The notes under the pieces: generated by a model
Seen by the model: the letters and a program-made list of their open reading frames with translations, nothing else
Told to the model about the DNA's origin: nothing
Database searches by the model: none
Made by a program: the position numbers and the translations under genes
In this document: piece after piece, positions 1-28,743 of the stretch
Layout of the letters: every line of letters begins with the position of its first letter
Numbering within the stretch: the first letter of the stretch is position 1
Assembly: GCA_016929395.1 (NCBI GenBank)
Contig: JAFGIX010000065.1
Span: 1 to 62,768 of the forward strand
Direction: 5' to 3'
Origin: Candidatus Zymogenus saltonus
GTDB lineage: Bacteria; Desulfobacterota; Zymogenia; Zymogenales; Zymogenaceae
Length of the DNA stretch: 62,768 nt

Positions 1-39
1 ATTTCCTCAACATTATCTCTTTTCGTTCAAATAACGCCC

Positions 40-18608: not shown

Positions 18609-20603
18609 ATGAAGAAGTACACGATCAAGCGCCAGCCGATAGAGGTCGATATATCCTCGATGTCGATCGACTACGCAAAACTCCTCAATCCCGCCCAGCT
18701 CTCGGCCGTAACGTTCGGCGGCGGGCCGTCCCTCATCATTGCCGGCGCCGGGAGCGGGAAGACCAGGACCCTCGTCTACAGGGTCGCGTACCTCGTCGAG
18801 CGGGGGGTGAAGCCCGCCTCCATACTTCTTCTGACGTTTACCAGAAAGGCCGCCCAGGAGATGCTGAAGAGGGCGGCGGCGCTGACGGGAAGCGGGATAG
18901 ACTCTACCTCCGGCGGCGTCGAAGGGGGGACGTTTCACTCGTTCGCCAGCCGTACGTTGAGGGAGTTCGCCCAGGAGGTAGGATTCTCCCCCTCGTTTAC
19001 CATCTTGGACAGGAGCGATTCCGAAGACGTGATCAACCTCATCAGGGGGGGAATGGGGCTGAACGTCAGGGAGCGGCGCTTTCCGAAGAAGAAGACGATA
19101 GCGGACATCTTCTCCAAATCGATAAACAGGTCCATCCCGATGAGCGAGGTCGTGGAGACCGAGTTTCCCCACTTCGCAAAGGAGATCGATCAGCTCTACG
19201 AGCTGTTGTCGGGTTACACCGAGTACAAACAGAAACACATGCTGATGGACTACGACGACCTCCTGGTGTATCTCGCGAGGTTATTGAAAGAAAAGGAGCC
19301 GGTGGCGGCAAAGCTGAGGGGCCGCTACGCCTATATCCTCGTCGACGAGTACCAGGACACCAACAGCCTCCAGGCCGACATAGTCAAGTACCTCGCCGGG
19401 GAGAACGGAAACGTCATGGTCGTTGGGGACGACTCCCAGAGCATCTACTCCTTTCGGGGAGCGGACTTCAAGAACATCATGGACTTCCCGAAGCTGTTTC
19501 CGAAAACTAAAATAGTGAAGTTAGAGGAAAACTACAGGAGCACCCAGTCGATCCTCGATCTGGCAAACACGATAATAGACAGGGCGAGGGAGAAATACAC
19601 GAAGGTCCTCTATACGAAGAGGGAGAAGGGCGGACCGCCGGCGCTGGTACCCCTTCCGGACGAGTCTACGCAGTCGGCCTTCGTGGCGCAGAAGATATTG
19701 GAGCTGAGGGAAGAGGGAGTGGCGCTCACCGACATCGCGGTCCTCTTCAGGGCCGGCTTTCACTCCTTTGACCTCGAGATGGAGCTGAAGAGGCGGAACA
19801 TCCCCTACGTCAAGTACGGGGGATTCAAGTTCATGGAGACCGCCCACGTGAAGGACATTATGGCTCACTTGAAAATCCTGACAAACCCGAGCGACGCCGT
19901 GGGATTGGAGAGGGCGCTTCTTCTGGTGGACGGTGTGGGGCCCGCCGCCGCAAGGGAGATCTCGGAGCACGTCATTTCCGAGGGGGTTACGTCGAAGGGG
20001 CTCTCATATTTTTCGGGCGACAGGAGGTACGGGGAGGGGATAGCGAGGCTCGCTGGGGCGATCTCGACCTTGGAGGAGAGCGAGATGAGCCCCGCCGACG
20101 CCGTCTCTCACCTGATAGATTACTACACCCCAATCCTCAAGAAGAGATACGACGATTACCCGAAGCGGCTCCAGGATCTGGAACACCTCTCGGTGATCAC
20201 CGGCAAGTACAGGGACCTCGACTCCTTCATGACCGACATGGCCCTGGAGCCCCCGAGCGACAGCGTCTCCGACATCGCGAGGGAAGACCCCGATCAGGAG
20301 AGGCTTATCCTCTCCACGATCCACTCGGCAAAGGGCCTGGAGTGGCACAGCGTCTTTATCATCTGGGCCGCCGAGGGGTATTTCCCCACGTCCTACGCCG
20401 CGGACTCCGTCGAAGACCTCGAGGAGGAGCTGAGGCTCATGTACGTCGCCGCGACGAGGGCAGAGCAGAACCTCTTTATCACCTATCCCGTAAAGATTAT
20501 AACCCACAAGGGCCCCACGTACGGGAAGGCATCGAGGTTCGTTATGGACATCGATGAAGGCGTTTTGGAGACCTGGGTGGTGGAGGAGGAGTGGGACGTA
20601 TAA
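18609..20603 (+). CDS. UvrD/PcrA-type ATP-dependent DNA helicase
   Basis: A 664-residue superfamily 1A 3'-5' helicase. LNPAQLSAV is the Q-motif region, GAGSGKT is Walker A (near 47-53), VDEYQDTN is Walker B (near 245-252), then GDDSQSIYSFRGAD (motif III), ENYRSTQSI (motif IV), LSTIHSAKGLEW (motif V) and YVAATRAEQNLF (motif VI). It is shorter than UvrD (about 720), mostly at the C-terminus. Family members act in repair and in clearing stalled forks. The start at 18609 has no Shine-Dalgarno; a promoter is spaced to give a leaderless message. Confidence 0.9.
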   Translation: MKKYTIKRQPIEVDISSMSIDYAKLLNPAQLSAVTFGGGPSLIIAGAGSGKTRTLVYRVAYLVERGVKPASILLLTFTRKAAQEMLKRAAALTGSGIDSTSGGVEGGTFHSFASRTLREFAQEVGFSPSFTILDRSDSEDVINLIRGGMGLNVRERRFPKKKTIADIFSKSINRSIPMSEVVETEFPHFAKEIDQLYELLSGYTEYKQKHMLMDYDDLLVYLARLLKEKEPVAAKLRGRYAYILVDEYQDTNSLQADIVKYLAGENGNVMVVGDDSQSIYSFRGADFKNIMDFPKLFPKTKIVKLEENYRSTQSILDLANTIIDRAREKYTKVLYTKREKGGPPALVPLPDESTQSAFVAQKILELREEGVALTDIAVLFRAGFHSFDLEMELKRRNIPYVKYGGFKFMETAHVKDIMAHLKILTNPSDAVGLERALLLVDGVGPAAAREISEHVISEGVTSKGLSYFSGDRRYGEGIARLAGAISTLEESEMSPADAVSHLIDYYTPILKKRYDDYPKRLQDLEHLSVITGKYRDLDSFMTDMALEPPSDSVSDIAREDPDQERLILSTIHSAKGLEWHSVFIIWAAEGYFPTSYAADSVEDLEEELRLMYVAATRAEQNLFITYPVKIITHKGPTYGKASRFVMDIDEGVLETWVVEEEWDV

Positions 20604-20769
20604 AACCGGATATTTAATCGATTTATCTAAAGATCAAGAATCCTCTTTCAATATTTTTGTCCACCTTTCTGATATGGACAGCCAAAGATCTTTCAGTTAT
20701 GATATTTTTAAATAAATTTAGATTTGCCGCCGCTGAAAACATGAATTACGACTCTCAAGGGAGCTTATA

Positions 20770-22374
20770 ATGAAGAGAAATATCAGTAAAGAGCTGCCAA
20801 AGCTCGCCATCGCCGAGGGGCCGTTATCGACGATCAAGACCGGGGCGCTTGTCGTGGGGATCTTCTCCAACGGAGACGGCCTCTCTCAAGAGGTTAAGAT
20901 GTTAGATACCGCCCTCAACGGAAAGATCAAAAGGCTTATCGTCTCGGGAGACTTCAAAGGCAGACCGAAGGAGACGCTGACGATATATCTTGACGACCAA
21001 ACGCCTGACGGCGAGGCGGCCGACACAGGCCCGGAGAGGATCATATTGGCCGGCCTTGGGAAGAGGGAGGAAATCGACCTTGACACGATACGGGCAGTAT
21101 CCGCGGCTGCGGCTAAGGCCGCAAAATCGATCGGGGTCAAAAAGATCGCCCTTCCCTTTGACCTCGCCGCGGGCTGCAAGATCGAGGGGGCCGACGACGC
21201 CCGGATTTCCGGGGACGTCTTCATCGGGGCCGCCCTCGGCACTTACGACTACACGGCGATAAAGGGGAAAAAGAAGCTCCTCAAGATAATAAAGGACGAT
21301 CATCACGAGGAGAAAAAGGAGCATATCGACGAGATCACGGTTGTCAACTACAGGATGGATAAGGCAAACGGCTCCGAGATCGAAGAGGGGGCGACGGCCG
21401 GGATGATCATCTCCGACTCCGTCTATCTCGCAAGAGACCTCATAAACGCGCCGCCCAACCTGATGACCCCGAGGCTCCTTGCAAGAACGGCCAAGGAGGT
21501 GGCCTTCAGGTATCAGCTTATCTGCGACGTCTTCAAGGCTGATGATATTAAGAAGATGAAGATGGGGGCGTTTTTGAGCGTGGCCAGGGGATCAAAGGAA
21601 CCGCCCGCACTGATAACGATCGAGTACGTCCCGAAGGAGAAGGCTGCAAAAAACGTGGCCCTGGTCGGAAAGGGGATAACCTTCGACAGCGGGGGTCTCT
21701 CTTTAAAGAGTGCCGAGGGAATGACGGACATGAAGACTGACATGAGCGGAGCGGCGGTGGTCCTTACGACGGTCATGGCCGCGGCAAGGCTGAAGCTCAA
21801 AACGGGGGTCGTGGGAATCCTCCCGGCGACGGAGAACATGCCGGGCTCAAACGCCACAAAGCCGGGGGATGTGGTCACCGCCATGGACGAGACGACCATA
21901 GAGATATTGAACACGGACGCCGAGGGAAGGCTGATCCTGGCCGACGCCATCACCTACGCGAAGAAATACGAGCCGACTGCCATCATCGACATCGCCACCC
22001 TTACGAGCGCCGTGGTAATCGCCCTGGGCAAAAAGGTGGCCGCCATATACTCCACCGACGACGCGCTTCTGGAAAGGCTCAAGGCGGCGTCCGCCGCGTC
22101 CGGCGAGAAGCTGTGGCCCATGCCCCTCTACAAACACTACGAGGAGCAGCTCAAAAGCGACATCGCCGACATCAAAAACAGTGGCGGCAGGGAGGCCGGA
22201 TCCATCACGGCGGCAACCTTCCTGAAACACTTCGCGGGAGACTACCACCCCTGGGCCCACATAGACATCGCGGGGACGGCCCGGGCCGAAAAGGAATACG
22301 ACTGGATCGCCAATGGGGGAACCGGCTTCGGCGTCATGCTCCTTCTTAGATTTCTGGAAATGATGGGGGAATAA
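20770..22374 (+). CDS. pepA: Leucyl aminopeptidase (M17)
   Basis: A 534-residue cytosolic metallo-aminopeptidase that removes N-terminal residues from peptides. The metal and active-site motifs are present: VGKGITFDSGGLSLK (near 301-315) with the bridging Lys and Asp, and NTDAEGRLILADAI (near 378-391), the M17 signature. A Lys/Glu/His-rich insertion (near 168-185) separates the N-terminal regulatory domain from the catalytic half. AAGGGA lies 7 nt before the ATG. It follows the helicase by 166 bp, so it probably has its own promoter. Confidence 0.93.
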   Translation: MKRNISKELPKLAIAEGPLSTIKTGALVVGIFSNGDGLSQEVKMLDTALNGKIKRLIVSGDFKGRPKETLTIYLDDQTPDGEAADTGPERIILAGLGKREEIDLDTIRAVSAAAAKAAKSIGVKKIALPFDLAAGCKIEGADDARISGDVFIGAALGTYDYTAIKGKKKLLKIIKDDHHEEKKEHIDEITVVNYRMDKANGSEIEEGATAGMIISDSVYLARDLINAPPNLMTPRLLARTAKEVAFRYQLICDVFKADDIKKMKMGAFLSVARGSKEPPALITIEYVPKEKAAKNVALVGKGITFDSGGLSLKSAEGMTDMKTDMSGAAVVLTTVMAAARLKLKTGVVGILPATENMPGSNATKPGDVVTAMDETTIEILNTDAEGRLILADAITYAKKYEPTAIIDIATLTSAVVIALGKKVAAIYSTDDALLERLKAASAASGEKLWPMPLYKHYEEQLKSDIADIKNSGGREAGSITAATFLKHFAGDYHPWAHIDIAGTARAEKEYDWIANGGTGFGVMLLLRFLEMMGE

Positions 22375-22532
22375 CAGACATCTTTTTCCCCTTATGGCCG
22401 CTTTCTTTTTTTGCAGTGGTTTGTATCCATCCGTTTTCTCTATACATTTTTTACATATTCTAAATCACAGTATCAGAAGATGCCGCGGCCTGTCTTCGTT
22501 GGTTCCTTTTCCAAACAATTTCCTCTTTTGAC

Positions 22533-22561
22533 TTGACAACACCCCCTTATTTTTTTAGAAT
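22533..22561 (+). promoter_or_regulatory. Strong sigma70 promoter of the acetoacetate-CoA ligase gene
   Basis: A perfect TTGACA (22533-22538), a 17-bp spacer and TAGAAT (22556-22561), differing from consensus at one base. It is followed at once by a palindrome. Confidence 0.75.
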
Positions 22562-22566
22562 TCTAC

Positions 22567-22588
22567 ACTGATTGAGAAGTCAATCAGT
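22567..22588. promoter_or_regulatory. Operator-like palindrome at the transcription start
   Basis: ACTGATTGA and TCAATCAGT are perfect 9-bp arms around a 4-bp centre. The site covers the predicted start of transcription, 6-27 bp after the -10 box, where a bound repressor would block RNA polymerase. The form suits TetR-family repressors, which often govern acyl-CoA metabolism genes. No regulator gene is nearby. Confidence 0.65.
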
Positions 22589-22635
22589 CTTCAAAAGTCT
22601 TTTTTGTTTACTATTACTTTTTATTAGGAGATGAC

Positions 22636-24600
22636 ATGACATCTGACAAACCCCTTTGGAAGCCATCGGAAGAGAGAATCAAGGGCACCAACATGTATCG
22701 CTTTATGAACTATATCAACGAAAGATTCTCCAAAGACTTTAAAACCTACGATCCGATGTGGGAATGGTCCATCGAAAACATCCCCGACTTCTGGGAAGCG
22801 ATCTGGGACTTTATGAATATTGTGCATTCAAAAAAATACGACAAGGTCTTGGTGGACGGGGACAAGATGCCCGGGGCCAAGTGGTTCGTGGGTGCCGAGC
22901 TGAACTTCGCCGAGAACCTCCTCAGACACGCGAAGGAGGACAAGACCGCTATCATCTTCAAGGGCGAGGCCCAGGATTTGGTCCACGTCTCCTACCCGGA
23001 GCTGTACGACAAGGTGGCCCGCCTTGCAAAGGCGATGCGGGAGATGGGGATAAAGAAGGGCGACCGCGTCGCCGGCTTTATGCCCAACATGCCCGAGACG
23101 ATCATGGCGATGCTCGCCGCAACGAGCATCGGCGCCATCTGGTCGTCATCGTCCCCCGACTTCGGGATAAAGGGCGTGCTTGATCGCTTCGGACAGATCG
23201 AGCCAAAGCTCATCTTCACCGCCAACGGCTACTCCTACAACGGCAAAAAGTTCAGCTCCCTCGAAAAGATCGCCGACATCTTAAAAGACCTCCCCTCCAT
23301 CGAGAAGGTCGTCGTGGTACCCTACACCGAAGAGAACGCCGACATCAGCGGGGTCAGGAACTCGGTGCACCTGAAAGACTTTATGTCGGACGAGAAGGGC
23401 CTTAAAATCGAGTTCGAGCAGGTCCCCTTCGATCATCCACTCTACATCATGTACTCATCGGGGACGACGGGGCTTCCCAAGTGCATGGTCCAGAGCGTGG
23501 GCGGCATCCTCGTGCATCACATGAAGGAGCTCATGCTCCACTCTGACCTTAAGCCTGAGGACAGGATATTCTACTTCACCACCTGCGGATGGATGATGTG
23601 GAACTGGCTTACAACGTCGCTCGCCGTCGGCGCCACTATAATCCTCTTCGACGGCTCCCCCTTCTATCCCGATCCGGGGGCTTTATTCACGCTTGCAGAG
23701 GATGTGAAGATGACCCACTTCGGCACCAGCGCCCGCTACCTGGCCGCCGTGGAAAAAGAGGAGCTGAAGACCCAGGGCAAGTACGACCTCTCCGAATTAA
23801 GATGCATGATGTCCACGGGCTCCCCCTTAAACGAGGAGCAGTTCGACTATGTCTACAGGGATATAAAGGAAGACATGTGCCTCTCGTCCATCGCCGGCGG
23901 AACCGACCTGAACGGCTGCTTCGCCCTCGGAAACCCGATGGGGGCCGTCTACAGAAGCGAGCTCCAGTGTCGGGGACTCGCCATGGACGTTCGGGCCTTC
24001 AACTCTAATGGGAAGCCGGTCGTGGGTGAAAAGGGAGAGCTTGTCTGCATGAAACCCTTCCCGTCGATGCCCATCTACTTCTGGCGAGACGAGGACGGCT
24101 CGAAATACCACAGCGCCTACTTCGACGTATACCCGAACATCTGGCGCCACGGAGACTTCATCGAGATAACTGAGCACAACGGCGTCATCTTCTACGGCCG
24201 CTCCGACGCCACCCTCAACCCGGGCGGCGTGCGCATAGGAACCTCCGAGATATACAGCGTGGTGGAAAACATGGGCGAGATCAACGACTGCATCGTGGTG
24301 GGCCAGGACTGGAAGAACGACGTGAGGGTGATCCTCTTCGTCAAGATGGCGGAAGGGGTGGAGCTCACCGAAGAGCTGGTAAAGAAGATAAAAACCGACA
24401 TAAAGAAAAACGCAACGCCCCGCCACGTTCCGTCAAAGGTAATAGCCGTGGACGACATACCCTACACCATTAACCTCAAGAAGGTCGAGCTTGCGGTAAA
24501 GAAGGTCATCCACGGGGAAGAGGTGCTGAACAAGGACGCCCTGGGCAATCCCCAGGCCCTCGACCTCTACAAGGACATCAAGGAGCTCAAAGAGGATTAA
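22636..24600 (+). CDS. Acetoacetate-CoA ligase (acetoacetyl-CoA synthetase)
   Basis: A 654-residue adenylate-forming enzyme that activates acetoacetate to acetoacetyl-CoA using ATP. The length and N-terminus (KPLWKPSEERIKGTNMYRF) match AacS more than acetyl-CoA synthetase. YIMYSSGTTGLPKCM (near 272-286) is the ATP-binding P-loop, TTCGWMMWNW follows as in AacS, and the C-terminal PRHVPSKVIAVDDIPYTINLKKVE carries the catalytic Lys near residue 615. AGGAG precedes the ATG. A strong promoter with an operator-like palindrome lies upstream, so substrate-controlled expression is likely. Confidence 0.9.
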   Translation: MTSDKPLWKPSEERIKGTNMYRFMNYINERFSKDFKTYDPMWEWSIENIPDFWEAIWDFMNIVHSKKYDKVLVDGDKMPGAKWFVGAELNFAENLLRHAKEDKTAIIFKGEAQDLVHVSYPELYDKVARLAKAMREMGIKKGDRVAGFMPNMPETIMAMLAATSIGAIWSSSSPDFGIKGVLDRFGQIEPKLIFTANGYSYNGKKFSSLEKIADILKDLPSIEKVVVVPYTEENADISGVRNSVHLKDFMSDEKGLKIEFEQVPFDHPLYIMYSSGTTGLPKCMVQSVGGILVHHMKELMLHSDLKPEDRIFYFTTCGWMMWNWLTTSLAVGATIILFDGSPFYPDPGALFTLAEDVKMTHFGTSARYLAAVEKEELKTQGKYDLSELRCMMSTGSPLNEEQFDYVYRDIKEDMCLSSIAGGTDLNGCFALGNPMGAVYRSELQCRGLAMDVRAFNSNGKPVVGEKGELVCMKPFPSMPIYFWRDEDGSKYHSAYFDVYPNIWRHGDFIEITEHNGVIFYGRSDATLNPGGVRIGTSEIYSVVENMGEINDCIVVGQDWKNDVRVILFVKMAEGVELTEELVKKIKTDIKKNATPRHVPSKVIAVDDIPYTINLKKVELAVKKVIHGEEVLNKDALGNPQALDLYKDIKELKED

Positions 24601-24611
24601 CCTCTTTTTCG

Positions 24612-24880
24612 TGCGTAGGGGTTGGGGCCAATATTGTGAAGGGGGTTGGGCAATATGATGAGGGGGGATGAGACAATAGTGCTCAGGGGGTCGGGCAACT
24701 GGAAAGTTGGCAAATAAGGATCGGGGCAATGTTGTAAGGGTGGAGGGTGATAACATGTAGGGGATCGGGCAATATTACAGGGGGTTGGAAAACGGGAATT
24801 TGGGGAAACGGGAAAACAGCGGAATTGGCCGATGGAGGATTGGGGAGGGATGGGGGATTCGCCCCTCGACCAATATCCCC
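24612..24880 (+). repeat. G-rich degenerate array (sense strand) after acetoacetate-CoA ligase
   Basis: G-runs at 24618, 24641, 24662, 24686, about 24722, 24738, 24760 and 24780 recur every 20-24 bp with one longer step. Consensus is roughly GGGGNTCGGGCAAT plus an AT-rich tail. The array begins 18 bp after the stop codon. Two better-preserved units lie at 62725-62768. Confidence 0.75.
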
Positions 24881-24923
24881 CGCCAAATTGCAAGGAGCTT
24901 GGACATAGATCGTTTTAACGTCA

Positions 24924-24955
24924 ACGGGGGTAGATTGAAATCCATCCCCGTTTTT
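24924..24955 (+). terminator. Rho-independent terminator downstream of the G-rich array
   Basis: ACGGGG (24924-24929) pairs with CCCCGT (24946-24951), with an inner GAT/ATC pairing and a TGAA loop, followed by TTTTT. It would end the acetoacetate-CoA ligase transcript after the repeat array. Confidence 0.8.
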
Positions 24956-24963
24956 ATTATGAC

Positions 24964-25017
24964 TAAATAAAAAGGGCACGTCCCAAGCTTTCAAGCAACT
25001 TAAGTTAAGGGCGTGCC
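24964..25017 (-). terminator. Candidate terminator of the DUF35/thiolase transcript
   Basis: Minus strand GGCACG (from 25017), a 31-nt loop, CGTGCC (to 24975) and then a T-rich run (CTTTTTATTT). The long loop and the 430-bp distance from the last gene weaken the call. Confidence 0.5.
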
Positions 25018-25451
25018 TCCTTCACAAACAACCAATACGGTCTTATGTCTTGTGTGGAAAGGCTGTTTCCCCTCTCCCGCCGCGTCCTTTTTATCAGTCT
25101 TGCTTTTTTATCAACTTTGATATTCCCCCCCCTCGAATACCTTCCCCATGGGGGCATCAGGGATTGTGCGGTCAAGCTCCCGCATCCCCATTGTACACAT
25201 GGCTTATATTCTCAACTCATACACCTCGTCTCTGCTCAACCTCGGCGGACAGATCGCCTTCGGCCACCTTATCGCCTTTATATCCCTTCCTCGTCCACAG
25301 CCCCGGCATCACCCGTCAAATTGCCAAACCACTTCCTGCTACACCCACCAAGTAAAAAATCATCCGCCGTTTTTTATTGCCCCGAAGCCCCCGACCGCTA
25401 TCACCGACATCAGATCCGAATCGAGAGCTCCGGCAATCCCGTCAGGGCAAC
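25018..25451. other. Intergenic region after the DUF35 gene
   Basis: About 430 bp with scattered C-runs on the plus strand (for example at 25124-25133), so G-runs on the sense strand of the DUF35 gene. No protein-like reading frame or RNA gene was recognised. Confidence 0.4.
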
Positions 25452-25862
25452 TCAGGCCTCGAAGCTGAACAGCGGCCTTGCCATGTCCCCCGCGGAGTAT
25501 TTGTCTCCAGGGAATACCTTGACTCCCATGACTACCCGCTTTCCGATGAGGTCCATATCCACCTTGTTCGGGGCGATGTCGATAAGGTTTCCCATGATCC
25601 AGGGGCCCTCGTCGAGCTCCACCATGACAATTATATACGGGGCCTCACACTCCCTCCCCTCCGCCGCCACGTAGTTGGTGGTGAAGGTCTTGACGGAACC
25701 CTTCCCCGAGAGCTCGGTGATCTCGAGGTTGGTGCCGGTACACTCGGAGCAGACCATCTTCGGCGGGACGTTAATCGCGCCGCAGTCGCCGCATTTCAGG
25801 CCGAGAAGTTTGTTTTTCTTCAGCGCCTTGTTGAACTCCTTGAAACTCAGCTTGTATTCCAT
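25452..25862 (-). CDS. DUF35 zinc-ribbon/OB-fold protein (thiolase partner)
   Basis: A 136-residue protein with an N-terminal helix, a rubredoxin-like zinc ribbon (CGDCG and CSECTG, near 23-43) and a C-terminal OB-fold. This is the DUF35 family, whose members form complexes with SCP2-type thiolases and are thought to bind or channel acyl-CoA. It starts 1 bp after the thiolase stop, so the two proteins are almost certainly made together and act as a complex. Confidence 0.88.
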   Translation of the reverse strand: MEYKLSFKEFNKALKKNKLLGLKCGDCGAINVPPKMVCSECTGTNLEITELSGKGSVKTFTTNYVAAEGRECEAPYIIVMVELDEGPWIMGNLIDIAPNKVDMDLIGKRVVMGVKVFPGDKYSAGDMARPLFSFEA

Positions 25863-25863
25863 T

Positions 25864-27042
25864 TTACCAACCCCTTTCCAGAATAATATTAACGAGTGTT
25901 CCGCCGTCGCCGCCCAGGGTGTCGGTCATGCCGATCTTGGCGCCCTCGACCAGCCTCTCCGGCTCCACCTCTCCCCTCAGCTGGTTCACTATTTCATATA
26001 CCTGACCGCCGCCGGTAGCTCCTATCGGGTGTCCCTTGGCCTTCAGTCCCCCGGAGGGATTTATCGCCACCTTGCCGCCTATTGCGGCCTCGCCCTTCAT
26101 CCAGGCCTCGCCCGATGTCCCGAACTCGAAAAAGCCGAGGCTCTCCACCGCGATGATGCTGGCAATCGAGAAACAGTCGTGGAGCTCGCAGACGTCGATG
26201 TCATCGGGTGTCCTGCCCGCCATCTTGTAGGCCAGCTTCGAGGAGACCTCCCTCGAATATATCCTGGGGAGGTACTTCTTCTGGCTCGAGAGGGGCCCGG
26301 CTGAGGCCTGACCCACGCCGGTAATATATACGGGCTTGTCGGTCAGCTTCTTTGCGGCGTCCTCGGACGCCAGTATCAGGGCCGACCCTCCGTCGGAGAA
26401 GGGACAGCAGTCGTGGAGCTGAATCGGCGTCGAGACCATGAAGGAATTGAGGACGTCCTCTATGGTTACCTCTTTTCTCATCTGGGCCTTCGGGTTATGC
26501 ATCCCGTACTTGTACGACTGGACCGACACCTGGGCCATCTGCTCCTTGAGCTTTTTCAGTGGGACGTTGTAATGGCTGGCGTAGAGGTGGGCGAGCATTG
26601 CGAACACCCCCGGAAATGTTATACCGCTGGGGAATTCGTATCTGCTGTCGCTGAACATGGCGAACGTCCTTGTCGCCAGCGGGGTCCCCATCGTTGCGGC
26701 CCTCTCCACGCCGCCCGCCAGGACTATATCGTAAAAGCCGGAGGCCACCCACATGAAGGCGTCCCTTACGGCCATCGAGGCGGAGGCGCAGGCGCCCTCG
26801 TACCTGTTGGCGGGCACGTTGAAACAGCCGATGTTTTCCGCCGCAAATGCCTGAACCATACCCTGTCCCTCGGAGAAATCCCCGAGGACGTTTCCCACAA
26901 AGAGGGCCTGAATGTCCCTCGGCTTGATATTCGACTTGGCCATCGCCTCCAGCGCCGCCTCGGCGAAGAGCTCCACCTCCGTCTTATCCTGTGCGGCCGT
27001 GAAATTTGTCTGGGCCACACCGATAACTGCTACCTTTTTCAC
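25864..27042 (-). CDS. SCP2-type thiolase (acetyl-CoA acetyltransferase-like)
   Basis: A 392-residue thiolase. The nucleophile Cys lies in EGACASASMAV (near residue 85), and the active-site His in GGLKAKGHPIGATG (near 343-356). The usual C-terminal CxGxG loop is replaced by TLGGDGGT, without the second Cys, as in SCP2/archaeal-type thiolases that need a DUF35 partner. That partner gene follows 1 bp downstream. It may cleave or form acetoacetyl-CoA, which fits the acetoacetate-CoA ligase nearby. The start codon is the GTG at 27042 with GGAGG upstream. Confidence 0.88.
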   Translation of the reverse strand: MKKVAVIGVAQTNFTAAQDKTEVELFAEAALEAMAKSNIKPRDIQALFVGNVLGDFSEGQGMVQAFAAENIGCFNVPANRYEGACASASMAVRDAFMWVASGFYDIVLAGGVERAATMGTPLATRTFAMFSDSRYEFPSGITFPGVFAMLAHLYASHYNVPLKKLKEQMAQVSVQSYKYGMHNPKAQMRKEVTIEDVLNSFMVSTPIQLHDCCPFSDGGSALILASEDAAKKLTDKPVYITGVGQASAGPLSSQKKYLPRIYSREVSSKLAYKMAGRTPDDIDVCELHDCFSIASIIAVESLGFFEFGTSGEAWMKGEAAIGGKVAINPSGGLKAKGHPIGATGGGQVYEIVNQLRGEVEPERLVEGAKIGMTDTLGGDGGTLVNIILERGW

Positions 27043-27103
27043 TACACTACCTCCTTTAGCTGTCTTAAAAAATCGCTTTTTCTTCTACAGTCACAATTTT
27101 CGT

Positions 27104-27109
27104 ATTATA
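27104..27109 (-). promoter_or_regulatory. -10 box of the thiolase/DUF35 operon
   Basis: TATAAT on the minus strand, 62 bp before the thiolase start. No clear -35 box was seen. Confidence 0.45.
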
Positions 27110-27690
27110 CGGTTCATTAAAGGGTAACGGCGACTTCCAATAAAAAAAGTAAGGACAAAAAAATCCCGCCGCTAAAGACAATCCGGGTTCCGGCCGCCGA
27201 AAATGAATTAATGGGGAGGCGGCCGTCCAGCACCTCTCAAAGCCGTGATCCTCGCCAGTCGCCGCATGACAATACACATAAATAACCGCGGCATAAATAG
27301 TATTTCCAATTGGGCGGGGGCCTGTGAGGCGTGCTTCGGCATAAGGGAAGGCGGGTGTGGGGGCCGCCGGAAAGGCCCCGGTTTTTGGCACATTAAGGCG
27401 GAGGGAGAAAATAAAATCCGAGTCGTACCCGATCTTCATATCAAAATCTTGCCGAGCCTTGACATAAAGGAGATAAGGAGAGAGACCTATTATCCTCAAA
27501 GGTTTTTATCAAAGGCGTTAGGAGTTTTGATATTTTTGCCAAAGAGCGATTCAGTAAATAGTACGAAGTTTCAAAGAACAATTTACTCTTCACATTCAAA
27601 AGAGATGGATTTTGATACAATAACTGTTTTTGCCGCGTCCTAAATCAGTGTCCCACGTACAAATAGCTTTGTGAAAAACGGTCTGCAATT

Positions 27691-27716
27691 CCCCCCCCCT
27701 CCCCCCCCTTTTTTTT
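27691..27716 (-). repeat. Homopolymer block after MeaB
   Basis: The plus strand reads nine C, one T, eight C, then eight T. On the MeaB sense strand this is an A-run followed by two long G-runs, 65-90 nt after the stop codon. Confidence 0.7.
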
Positions 27717-27780
27717 GTCATCACTCCCTGAGGTCGCCGCGGGATCTCACTCTTTCAAGCCGCTTAAGGGAGAAACCGCC

Positions 27781-28743
27781 TCAAACTCCCTTCTTGTAGG
27801 CACCGCAGACCTTGCCGATATTGTTAAATATCTCTTCGGCCGCGCTGTAGGGGTCTATCTCCCCGGACGATGCCATCTTCTGAACGAGGTCGTAATAATC
27901 TCCGCCGGAACAGATGGCCCCCTTGACGGCATCGTCCACCATCTGCTCCACGATCTTGAAAAGCTCCGCCTTCGACCTCTTGATTCTTCTCTCTTCCAGC
28001 CCCCCCGATCTTTCGAGGTATTTTCGGTGCTCCTCGATGACCTCGATAAGCTCTTCTATCCCCTGGTCCATCGTGGCCACGGTCTGAACGATTCTCTCCT
28101 TCCATCCCTTGTTTCCTCTATTCCCGAGCTGGAGCATGAACTCGAGCTCGGAAAGCATACGGGACGCCTCCGGGCGATCCGACTTGTTGACGACGTATAT
28201 ATCGCCGAACTCCAAGATGCCGGCCTTTATGCTCTGGATGGCGTCGCCGCCTCCGGGCATGGTGACGATAATCAGGGTTTGGACGAAGTTTTCGATGTCG
28301 ATCTCGTCCTGGCCCACGCCGATGGACTCCACGATGATAACGTCCTTTTTGAAGGCGTCCAGTATATTGATCACGTCGTTCGTCGCGATGGCGAGCCCGC
28401 CCGACGACCCTCTCGTGCCCATGCTCCTGATGAAGACCCCCTTGTCGCCCGTGAGCTCCAGCATCCTGACCCTGTCCCCCAAAAGGGCGCCCCCGGTCAG
28501 GGGGCTTGTGGGATCGACGGCGATTATGCCCACGGTCTTTCCCTGTTTTCTGTACGCCAAACCCAGCTTCGCGATGAGACTGCTCTTGCCGACCCCGGCA
28601 ATACCGGTAATCCCGATGATGTGGGCGCCTCCCCCGTATTTGTAAAGCCTCTTTATCGCCTCCCTCGCCCCGGGGTCGTTGTTCTCCACGAGGGTGATCA
28701 GCCGGGAGAGCGCATGATTTTCACCGTTTAAAAGCCTTTCCAC
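27781..28743 (-). CDS. meaB: MeaB-type GTPase (methylmalonyl-CoA mutase chaperone)
   Basis: A 320-residue G3E-family GTPase (MeaB/ArgK). GITGIAGVGKSSL (near 42-54) is the P-loop, VDPTSPLTGGALLGDRVRM (near 77-95) is the switch region characteristic of MeaB, and IVESIGVGQDE and VVNKSD are the G3 and G4 motifs. It protects and reactivates adenosylcobalamin-dependent acyl-CoA mutases. No mutase is in the window, but corrinoid-type methyltransferases and CoA-ester genes are. The start appears to be GTG at 28743 with AAGGGA at a long spacing, so the exact start is uncertain. Confidence 0.9.
   Translation of the reverse strand: MERLLNGENHALSRLITLVENNDPGAREAIKRLYKYGGGAHIIGITGIAGVGKSSLIAKLGLAYRKQGKTVGIIAVDPTSPLTGGALLGDRVRMLELTGDKGVFIRSMGTRGSSGGLAIATNDVINILDAFKKDVIIVESIGVGQDEIDIENFVQTLIIVTMPGGGDAIQSIKAGILEFGDIYVVNKSDRPEASRMLSELEFMLQLGNRGNKGWKERIVQTVATMDQGIEELIEVIEEHRKYLERSGGLEERRIKRSKAELFKIVEQMVDDAVKGAICSGGDYYDLVQKMASSGEIDPYSAAEEIFNNIGKVCGAYKKGV

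Follow-up and report, generated by a model that had tools for sequence, protein, structure and literature searches.

A predicted TetR-family operator at the promoter of an acetoacetate–CoA ligase gene in Candidatus Zymogenus saltonus, and its likely cognate regulator

We analysed a 62,768-nucleotide stretch of DNA (the window), which is contig C65 of the draft genome G000 of Candidatus Zymogenus saltonus (3.76 Mb, 92 contigs, 99.6% complete). Within it, a 261-bp intergenic stretch between an M17 aminopeptidase gene and an acetoacetate–CoA ligase gene (AACS) holds a promoter and a palindrome:

22533-22538, + strand: −35 hexamer TTGACA, read directly; 6/6 kept in the related genome G001
22556-22561, + strand: −10 hexamer TAGAAT, read directly, 17 bp from the −35 hexamer; TAAAAT at equal spacing in G001
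22567-22588, no strand assigned: predicted operator, perfect palindrome ACTGATTGA-GAAG-TCAATCAGT, starting 5 bp past the −10 hexamer
22626-22630, + strand: ribosome-binding site AGGAG, identified by eye
22636-24600, + strand: AACS, 654 aa, ATG at 22636; NCBIfam TIGR01217 and NF002937 above cut-off

The identity of AACS is given by its scores against TIGR01217 (928.2 bits, cut-off 520.9) and NF002937 (963.6 bits, cut-off 639). The first-pass annotation had described a near-perfect promoter and a perfect palindrome before this ligase gene, and sequence, coordinates and gene identity were all confirmed. Just 3′ of AACS lies a degenerate 22-bp tandem repeat (24618-24698; GGGGTTGGGCAATATGATGAG, 3.6 copies), and a G/C-run-rich stretch near C17:9244 looks similar to it by eye. 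Convergent with AACS, at 25452-27042 on the minus strand, are genes for an OB-fold (ChsH2-like) protein and a thiolase; a matrix scan with the two operator classes defined below found no class-A (at least 8 bits) or class-B (at least 6 bits) site before them.

The promoter agrees with the sigma-70 consensus (TTGACA-16..18-TATAAT, at most one mismatch) at 11/12 positions with a spacing of 17, is conserved in G001, and is the sole 11/12 match in 20500-27800. The pattern TTGACA-N16-18-TANAAT occurs once in the whole window against 0.02 expected in shuffles, and a looser scan of 20500-27800 returned four promoter-like sites against 4.2 expected. Transcription would be expected to start ~6-8 bp after the −10 hexamer, at the left end of the palindrome. 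For perfect palindromes with arms of at least 9 and a gap of at most 8, simulated sequence gives 2.1 (sd 1.6) and the window five; palindromes of such size are not clearly rare, so the one at AACS needs support from other evidence. It is raised above chance by its place 5 bp past the −10 hexamer, by its conservation in G001, and by a family of related sites.

Of the 59 genomes searched, G001 alone belongs to the same genus, and its AACS is 88% identical. The operator core (22569-22586) is kept at 18/18 positions and the whole palindrome at 20/22, with 6/6 positions of the −35 hexamer, 5/6 of the −10 hexamer, and identical spacings. Divergence is concentrated in the promoter spacer (10/17 positions kept), the upstream intergenic sequence (56/158) and the leader (18/34).

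A palindrome that would start at or beside the transcription start, and that folds into a 9-bp hairpin, might act as RNA at the 5′ end of the AACS message (as a stabiliser, attenuator or terminator) and not as DNA, and a similar palindrome at C17:9244 has terminator-like A and T runs alongside. The fold, however, has a z of −0.86, with 33/200 shuffles as good; G-C accounts for 3/9 pairs, and the T run begins 12 bases past the stem. The palindrome therefore has neither the G+C-rich stem with an immediate T run nor the shuffle-beating fold of an intrinsic terminator or 5′ hairpin. It is absent from the 12 terminator-like sites of a terminator scan, no Rfam match was found at gathering scores in 21800-25400, and like sequences recur before TetR genes in several families. 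We regard a hairpin role as highly improbable.

Uniqueness of the palindrome had been named in the first-pass annotation as grounds against an operator. The exact 22-mer is indeed single copy in the genome (next best: three mismatches), but its core motif recurs, so uniqueness of the exact 22-mer is too strict a test. The genome scan proposed there found, with relaxed arms, sites upstream of acyl-CoA genes and of a tetR gene. TGANTGA-N4-TCANTCA has eight exact and five one-mismatch sites in G000, against 0 in the reversed control. Nine of these 13 lie outside called ORFs, those on C17, C30 and C54 touch doubtful short ORFs, and the one-mismatch site on C55, inside a 563-aa ORF, was set aside as a candidate operator.

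Two classes of palindrome were distinguished. Class A (TGAATGA-N4-TCATTCA) precedes a FadR-like TetR gene on C32, with a fadJ-like gene behind it, and in G000 also FadE-like acyl-CoA dehydrogenase genes (C15, C27); the C32 protein carries TetR_C_4 and scores 194.4 bits against the FadR model NF053878, just under the cut-off of 200. Class B (GATTGAC-NN-GTCAATC, in longer form AGATTGAC-NN-GTCARTCA) precedes a second TetR gene, on C1, whose product we call TetR-B. Class-B sites with at most two mismatches number 10 in G000 and five in G001, against one in the reversed control for each; the matches C4:12189 and C23:7123 were set aside because they lie inside ORFs.

We scored sites with a matrix for each class, leaving the AACS site out of both. 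The class-A matrix was built from 23 sites, hybrids also excluded, and its true sites score 21.3-31.1 bits. The class-B matrix holds 12 sites with leave-one-out scores of 22.7-28.3 bits, which lean high because the sites were gathered by near-exact pattern matches. It includes two sites with less clear targets, L203 (a Band_7 gene) and L197 (an OB-fold gene 309 bp away), and L194, which overlaps the first codons of the longest ORF; G002:C54, G003:C40:24571 and G003:C3:42473 were seen and left out, being inside ORFs as called. Against these matrices the AACS site reaches 23.2 bits as class B, near the bottom of the true range, and 12.6 bits as class A. Class-B sites of 23.2 bits are expected by chance 0.026 times in the genome. 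The site has the class-B form, with one mismatch in the 14 fixed positions, at the inner base of the left arm (GAG for GAC), and lacks the class-A form. By its sequence, the predicted AACS operator is class B.

The operator might nonetheless be read by the FadR-like TetR of C32, which would place AACS in the fatty-acid regulon. Classes A and B share an 18-bp frame, and the two regulators are related (32% identity between TetR-B and the C32 protein). Hybrid sites that pair a TGATTGA arm with a TGAATGA arm, found in G000, G001 and G003, score as class A (21.3-22.6 bits), so a C32-type regulator seems to tolerate one T-type arm. Against such ownership, both arms of the AACS site are T-type, with the matrix scores given above, the C32 gene itself carries a purely class-A operator, and the recognition helices differ (ADG vs AYG). 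On the matrix scores we rejected class A as owner of the site, and we consider control by the C32 protein unlikely. The hybrid boxes precede an MFS transporter gene (G000:C53:14553, G001:C197:530 and G003:C3:19142), in G000 of L-lactate type (NF049980, 397.2 bits, cut-off 320) and in G000 and G001 followed by a gene for an AMP-binding, acetyl-CoA-synthetase-like ligase. A further hybrid, G002:C26, scores 19.2 bits as class A and 20.3 bits as class B.

Class-A boxes were also seen at other genes. FadR-type boxes precede ATP synthase genes in three places (L079, L077 and L202): G000:C63:9264, with P-II-like, ATP-synt_I and ATP-synt_C proteins behind; G000:C52:36198, with two ATP-synt_B genes; and G003:C26:102643, with ATP-synt_I and ATP-synt_A. 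A fatty-acid regulator over ATP synthase would be unusual. In 4/4 genomes of the family, a class-A-type box adjoins dnaK and precedes an acyl-CoA-dehydrogenase gene (G000:C15:16526, L281 in G002, L282 in G003 and L283 in G001); dnaK was recognised by eye in L282 and L283, and in G001 an extra ORF lies between box and dehydrogenase gene.

The regulator that goes with class B is encoded on C1:

L080:3298-3939 (G000:C1:46197-46838), − strand: TetR-B gene, 213 aa, FadR-related TetR

TetR-B carries the Pfam domains TetR_N and TetR_C_4 (YsiA-like), and two acyl-CoA dehydrogenase genes follow its gene. The class-B site before it, AGATTGACTTGTCAGTCA, lies 5 bp past a TTGACA/TATAAA promoter-like pair with a spacing of 15, so the genome contains a candidate cognate regulator with a class-B site of its own, in a promoter-then-operator layout like that at AACS (TTGACA, 15 bp, TATAAA, 5 bp, TGACTGACAAGTCAATCT). 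Among the 20 TetR genes of G000, only that of TetR-B (L008) has a nearby class-B site above 12 bits, and TetR-B alone has an AYG recognition helix. Orthologues 57-70% identical to the G000 protein occur in 4/4 genomes of the family, and all of them have a class-B site upstream. The genome is a draft (92 contigs, 99.6% complete) and binding by TetR-B is itself a prediction, so the site might be used by another regulator missing from the assembly, or by a non-TetR protein; with matching site and helix found together in TetR-B only, and with the pairing present throughout the family, we judge this extremely improbable. The earlier proposals of a TetR-type operator and of a repressor encoded elsewhere are thus borne out as predictions: the class-B matrix and the related sites before tetR genes support the operator, and TetR-B, on another contig, is the likely repressor.

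Beyond the family, a profile of the four family TetR-B proteins matched 14/297 genomes of the phylum at E ≤ 1e-40. In five of 10 outside-family homologues (L229, L230, L231, L233 and L234), a class-B site of 23.5-27.9 bits lies immediately ahead of the gene or at the start of its longest reading; of the other five, two have class-A sites and three have neither (L232 and L238 with a YG helix, the third with ADG). Among 395 genomes, 11 contain exact class-B matches, 14 in all against 0 in the reversed control, and seven of these sites lie directly before a TetR gene matched by the TetR-B profile at 117 bits or more. Four of those seven genes are additional to the ones from the profile search; since class-A proteins score 120-143 bits against the same profile, these four are no closer to TetR-B than class-A proteins are. 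When 20 proteins are placed on a tree, the four class-A rows group together (84/90). The class-B rows are not one clade, three changes being needed: L233, L269, L270, L271 and L277 lie in a separate clade, and its members other than L233 score no better than class-A proteins against the TetR-B profile. Judged from these sequences, the common feature of the class-B rows is the recognition helix, which is (A/S)YG in 13/13 class-B-paired rows and ADG in 4/4 class-A rows.

The class-B members counted in G000 comprise AACS, the TetR-B gene and its dehydrogenase genes (C1), and a thiolase-thiolase-OB-OB operon that starts 118 bp past the site C63:10640-10657. Elsewhere in the family, a class-B site precedes an operon for a CoA-transferase and a beta-keto-acid cleavage enzyme (BKACE), exact in G003 and, in G002, weaker than any matrix site at 20.7 bits; other targets are BKACE alone (G001), thiolases (G003) and acyl-CoA ligases (G003, G002). 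No close BKACE orthologue was found in G000 (best 34%). Outside the family, targets include an HMG-CoA lyase (G086; 263.4 bits, cut-off 246) and an AMP-binding ligase behind a BKACE gene (G034). Acetoacetate is a product of BKACE enzymes and of HMG-CoA lyase; its activation is the work of CoA-transferase and AACS, and thiolase cleaves the activated product. Some neighbours fit poorly: in G386 biotin carboxylase and FabK-like genes follow the class-B site, in G003 (C35) a Band_7 gene does, and in G385 the place is unclear. In five distant genomes, class-B sites with at most two mismatches number 3, 6, 1, 2 and 1 against 0, 0, 2, 2 and 0 in the reversed control, and so few sites do not demonstrate a regulon beyond autoregulation there. 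The site G000:C17:9244 (L074:4043-4064; GTTGATTGA-CTCT-TCAATCAAC) scores 19.3 bits as class B, lies between an A run and a T run, and neighbours a BtuR/methylmalonyl-CoA mutase pair and queA/tgt genes. With these terminator-like flanks, that score, and BtuR, the closest minus-strand gene assigned to a family, starting ~1 kb away, we did not count it as a member; it is perhaps a two-way terminator that resembles an operator by chance.

The class-B site at AACS is found at the orthologous gene in G001 and not at the more distant AACS homologues examined. Sequences of up to 400 bp upstream of 41 of 80 named AACS loci contain no site at one mismatch or fewer; nor do those of the 25 loci from other families (L025-L049), where the best class-B score was 8.3, and two-mismatch matches turned up at L034, L045 and L100. 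Across all 80 AACS loci of other bacteria (839,416 bases), no class-B site reaches 15 bits, 13 reach at least 9 and two at least 12, in contrast to the sites at the five outside-family TetR-B genes. Two sister genera are without a close AACS homologue (best 27-30% identity). The site is thus kept within the genus only, and the link between TetR-B and AACS rests on two genomes.

The nearest known system is FadR (YsiA) of Bacillus, a TetR-type repressor that controls fatty-acid degradation and is released by long-chain acyl-CoA. The best PDB matches of TetR-B are 5gpa/5gp9 and 3whb, which we take to be structures of Bacillus FadR proteins; 3whb is titled 'Fatty acid metabolism regulator protein'. 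TetR-B resembles FadR in its YsiA-like TetR_C_4 domain, in an 18-bp palindromic operator similar to the B. subtilis box, and in its acyl-CoA gene targets. It differs in scoring 121.9 bits against NF053878, below the membership cut-off of 200, in its AYG helix in place of ADG (the latter taken from the class-A rows of the phylum), and in being paired with GATTGAC-NN-GTCAATC and not TGAATGA-N4-TCATTCA. The LiuR and LiuQ regulons (branched-chain amino-acid use) likewise control acyl-CoA breakdown in related pathways, and aacS genes reportedly belong to regulons of this type, in work attributed to Kazakov from 2009. In the excerpted text of PMC5343134, LiuR is of MerR type and LiuQ is a TetR regulator unique to betaproteobacteria, and only five of the regulators studied have deltaproteobacterial orthologues; on these descriptions of protein family and host group, we set both apart from TetR-B. 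The same excerpts describe FadP and PsrA as TetR-family regulators of fatty-acid degradation regulons in beta- and gammaproteobacteria, with FadP placed in betaproteobacteria; TetR family and fatty-acid regulon liken them to TetR-B, again by description.

The sites and how far they are conserved, their assignment by matrix, and the co-occurrence of class-B sites with TetR-B homologues were all read from sequence; from these we infer binding, repression and ligand as follows. The palindrome at 22567-22588 is likely the operator of a TetR-family dimer, with TetR-B as its cognate protein, and we are fairly confident that TetR-B would repress AACS by covering the transcription start and be released by an acyl-CoA. 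TetR-B would repress its own promoter through AGATTGACTTGTCAGTCA and AACS through TGATTGAGAAGTCAATCA, in a position like that of its own site, and a third target would be the thiolase-thiolase-OB-OB operon, through C63:10640. Sitting on the transcription start, TetR-B would keep RNA polymerase out, occlusion being the simplest reading. The presence of 'Fatty acid metabolism regulator protein' among the nearest solved relatives of TetR-B makes an acyl-CoA ligand likely without naming it; the releasing ligand may be one made during breakdown of acetoacetate, beta-keto acids or other short acyl-CoAs. Once TetR-B is released, acetoacetate would be activated to acetoacetyl-CoA and passed to thiolase cleavage. 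AACS probably belongs to a small control circuit for acyl-CoA and acetoacetate, since its site closely resembles the site before a repressor gene elsewhere in the genome. The first-pass interpretation as a whole is, on these predictions, partly supported, its tight repression and its induction by an acyl-CoA or ketone-body signal being conjectural.

A broader reading, possible but doubtful, is that TetR-B represents a separate group, patchily spread in the phylum, that reads TGATTGAC-NN-GTCAATCA through its (A/S)YG helix, governs the family's handling of acetoacetate and beta-keto acids (AACS, CoA-transferase with BKACE, thiolases), and senses acetoacetyl-CoA or a close short acyl-CoA and not a long-chain one; AACS would have been recruited in the genus of the window, with the sister genera using the CoA-transferase/BKACE operon. 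A search of the open literature found no paper on the TetR-B regulator or the AACS operator, its coverage being one open library, with several lists off-topic. The regulatory principle is ordinary, TetR control of acyl-CoA genes being already known as a kind. For specificity, an (A/S)YG versus an ADG helix would distinguish TGATTGAC from TGAATGA sites between two related TetRs in one cell. For the lineage, a little-studied one within the Desulfobacterota, the finding offers a predicted operator for acetoacetate activation, together with the regulator that likely reads it and a set of targets.
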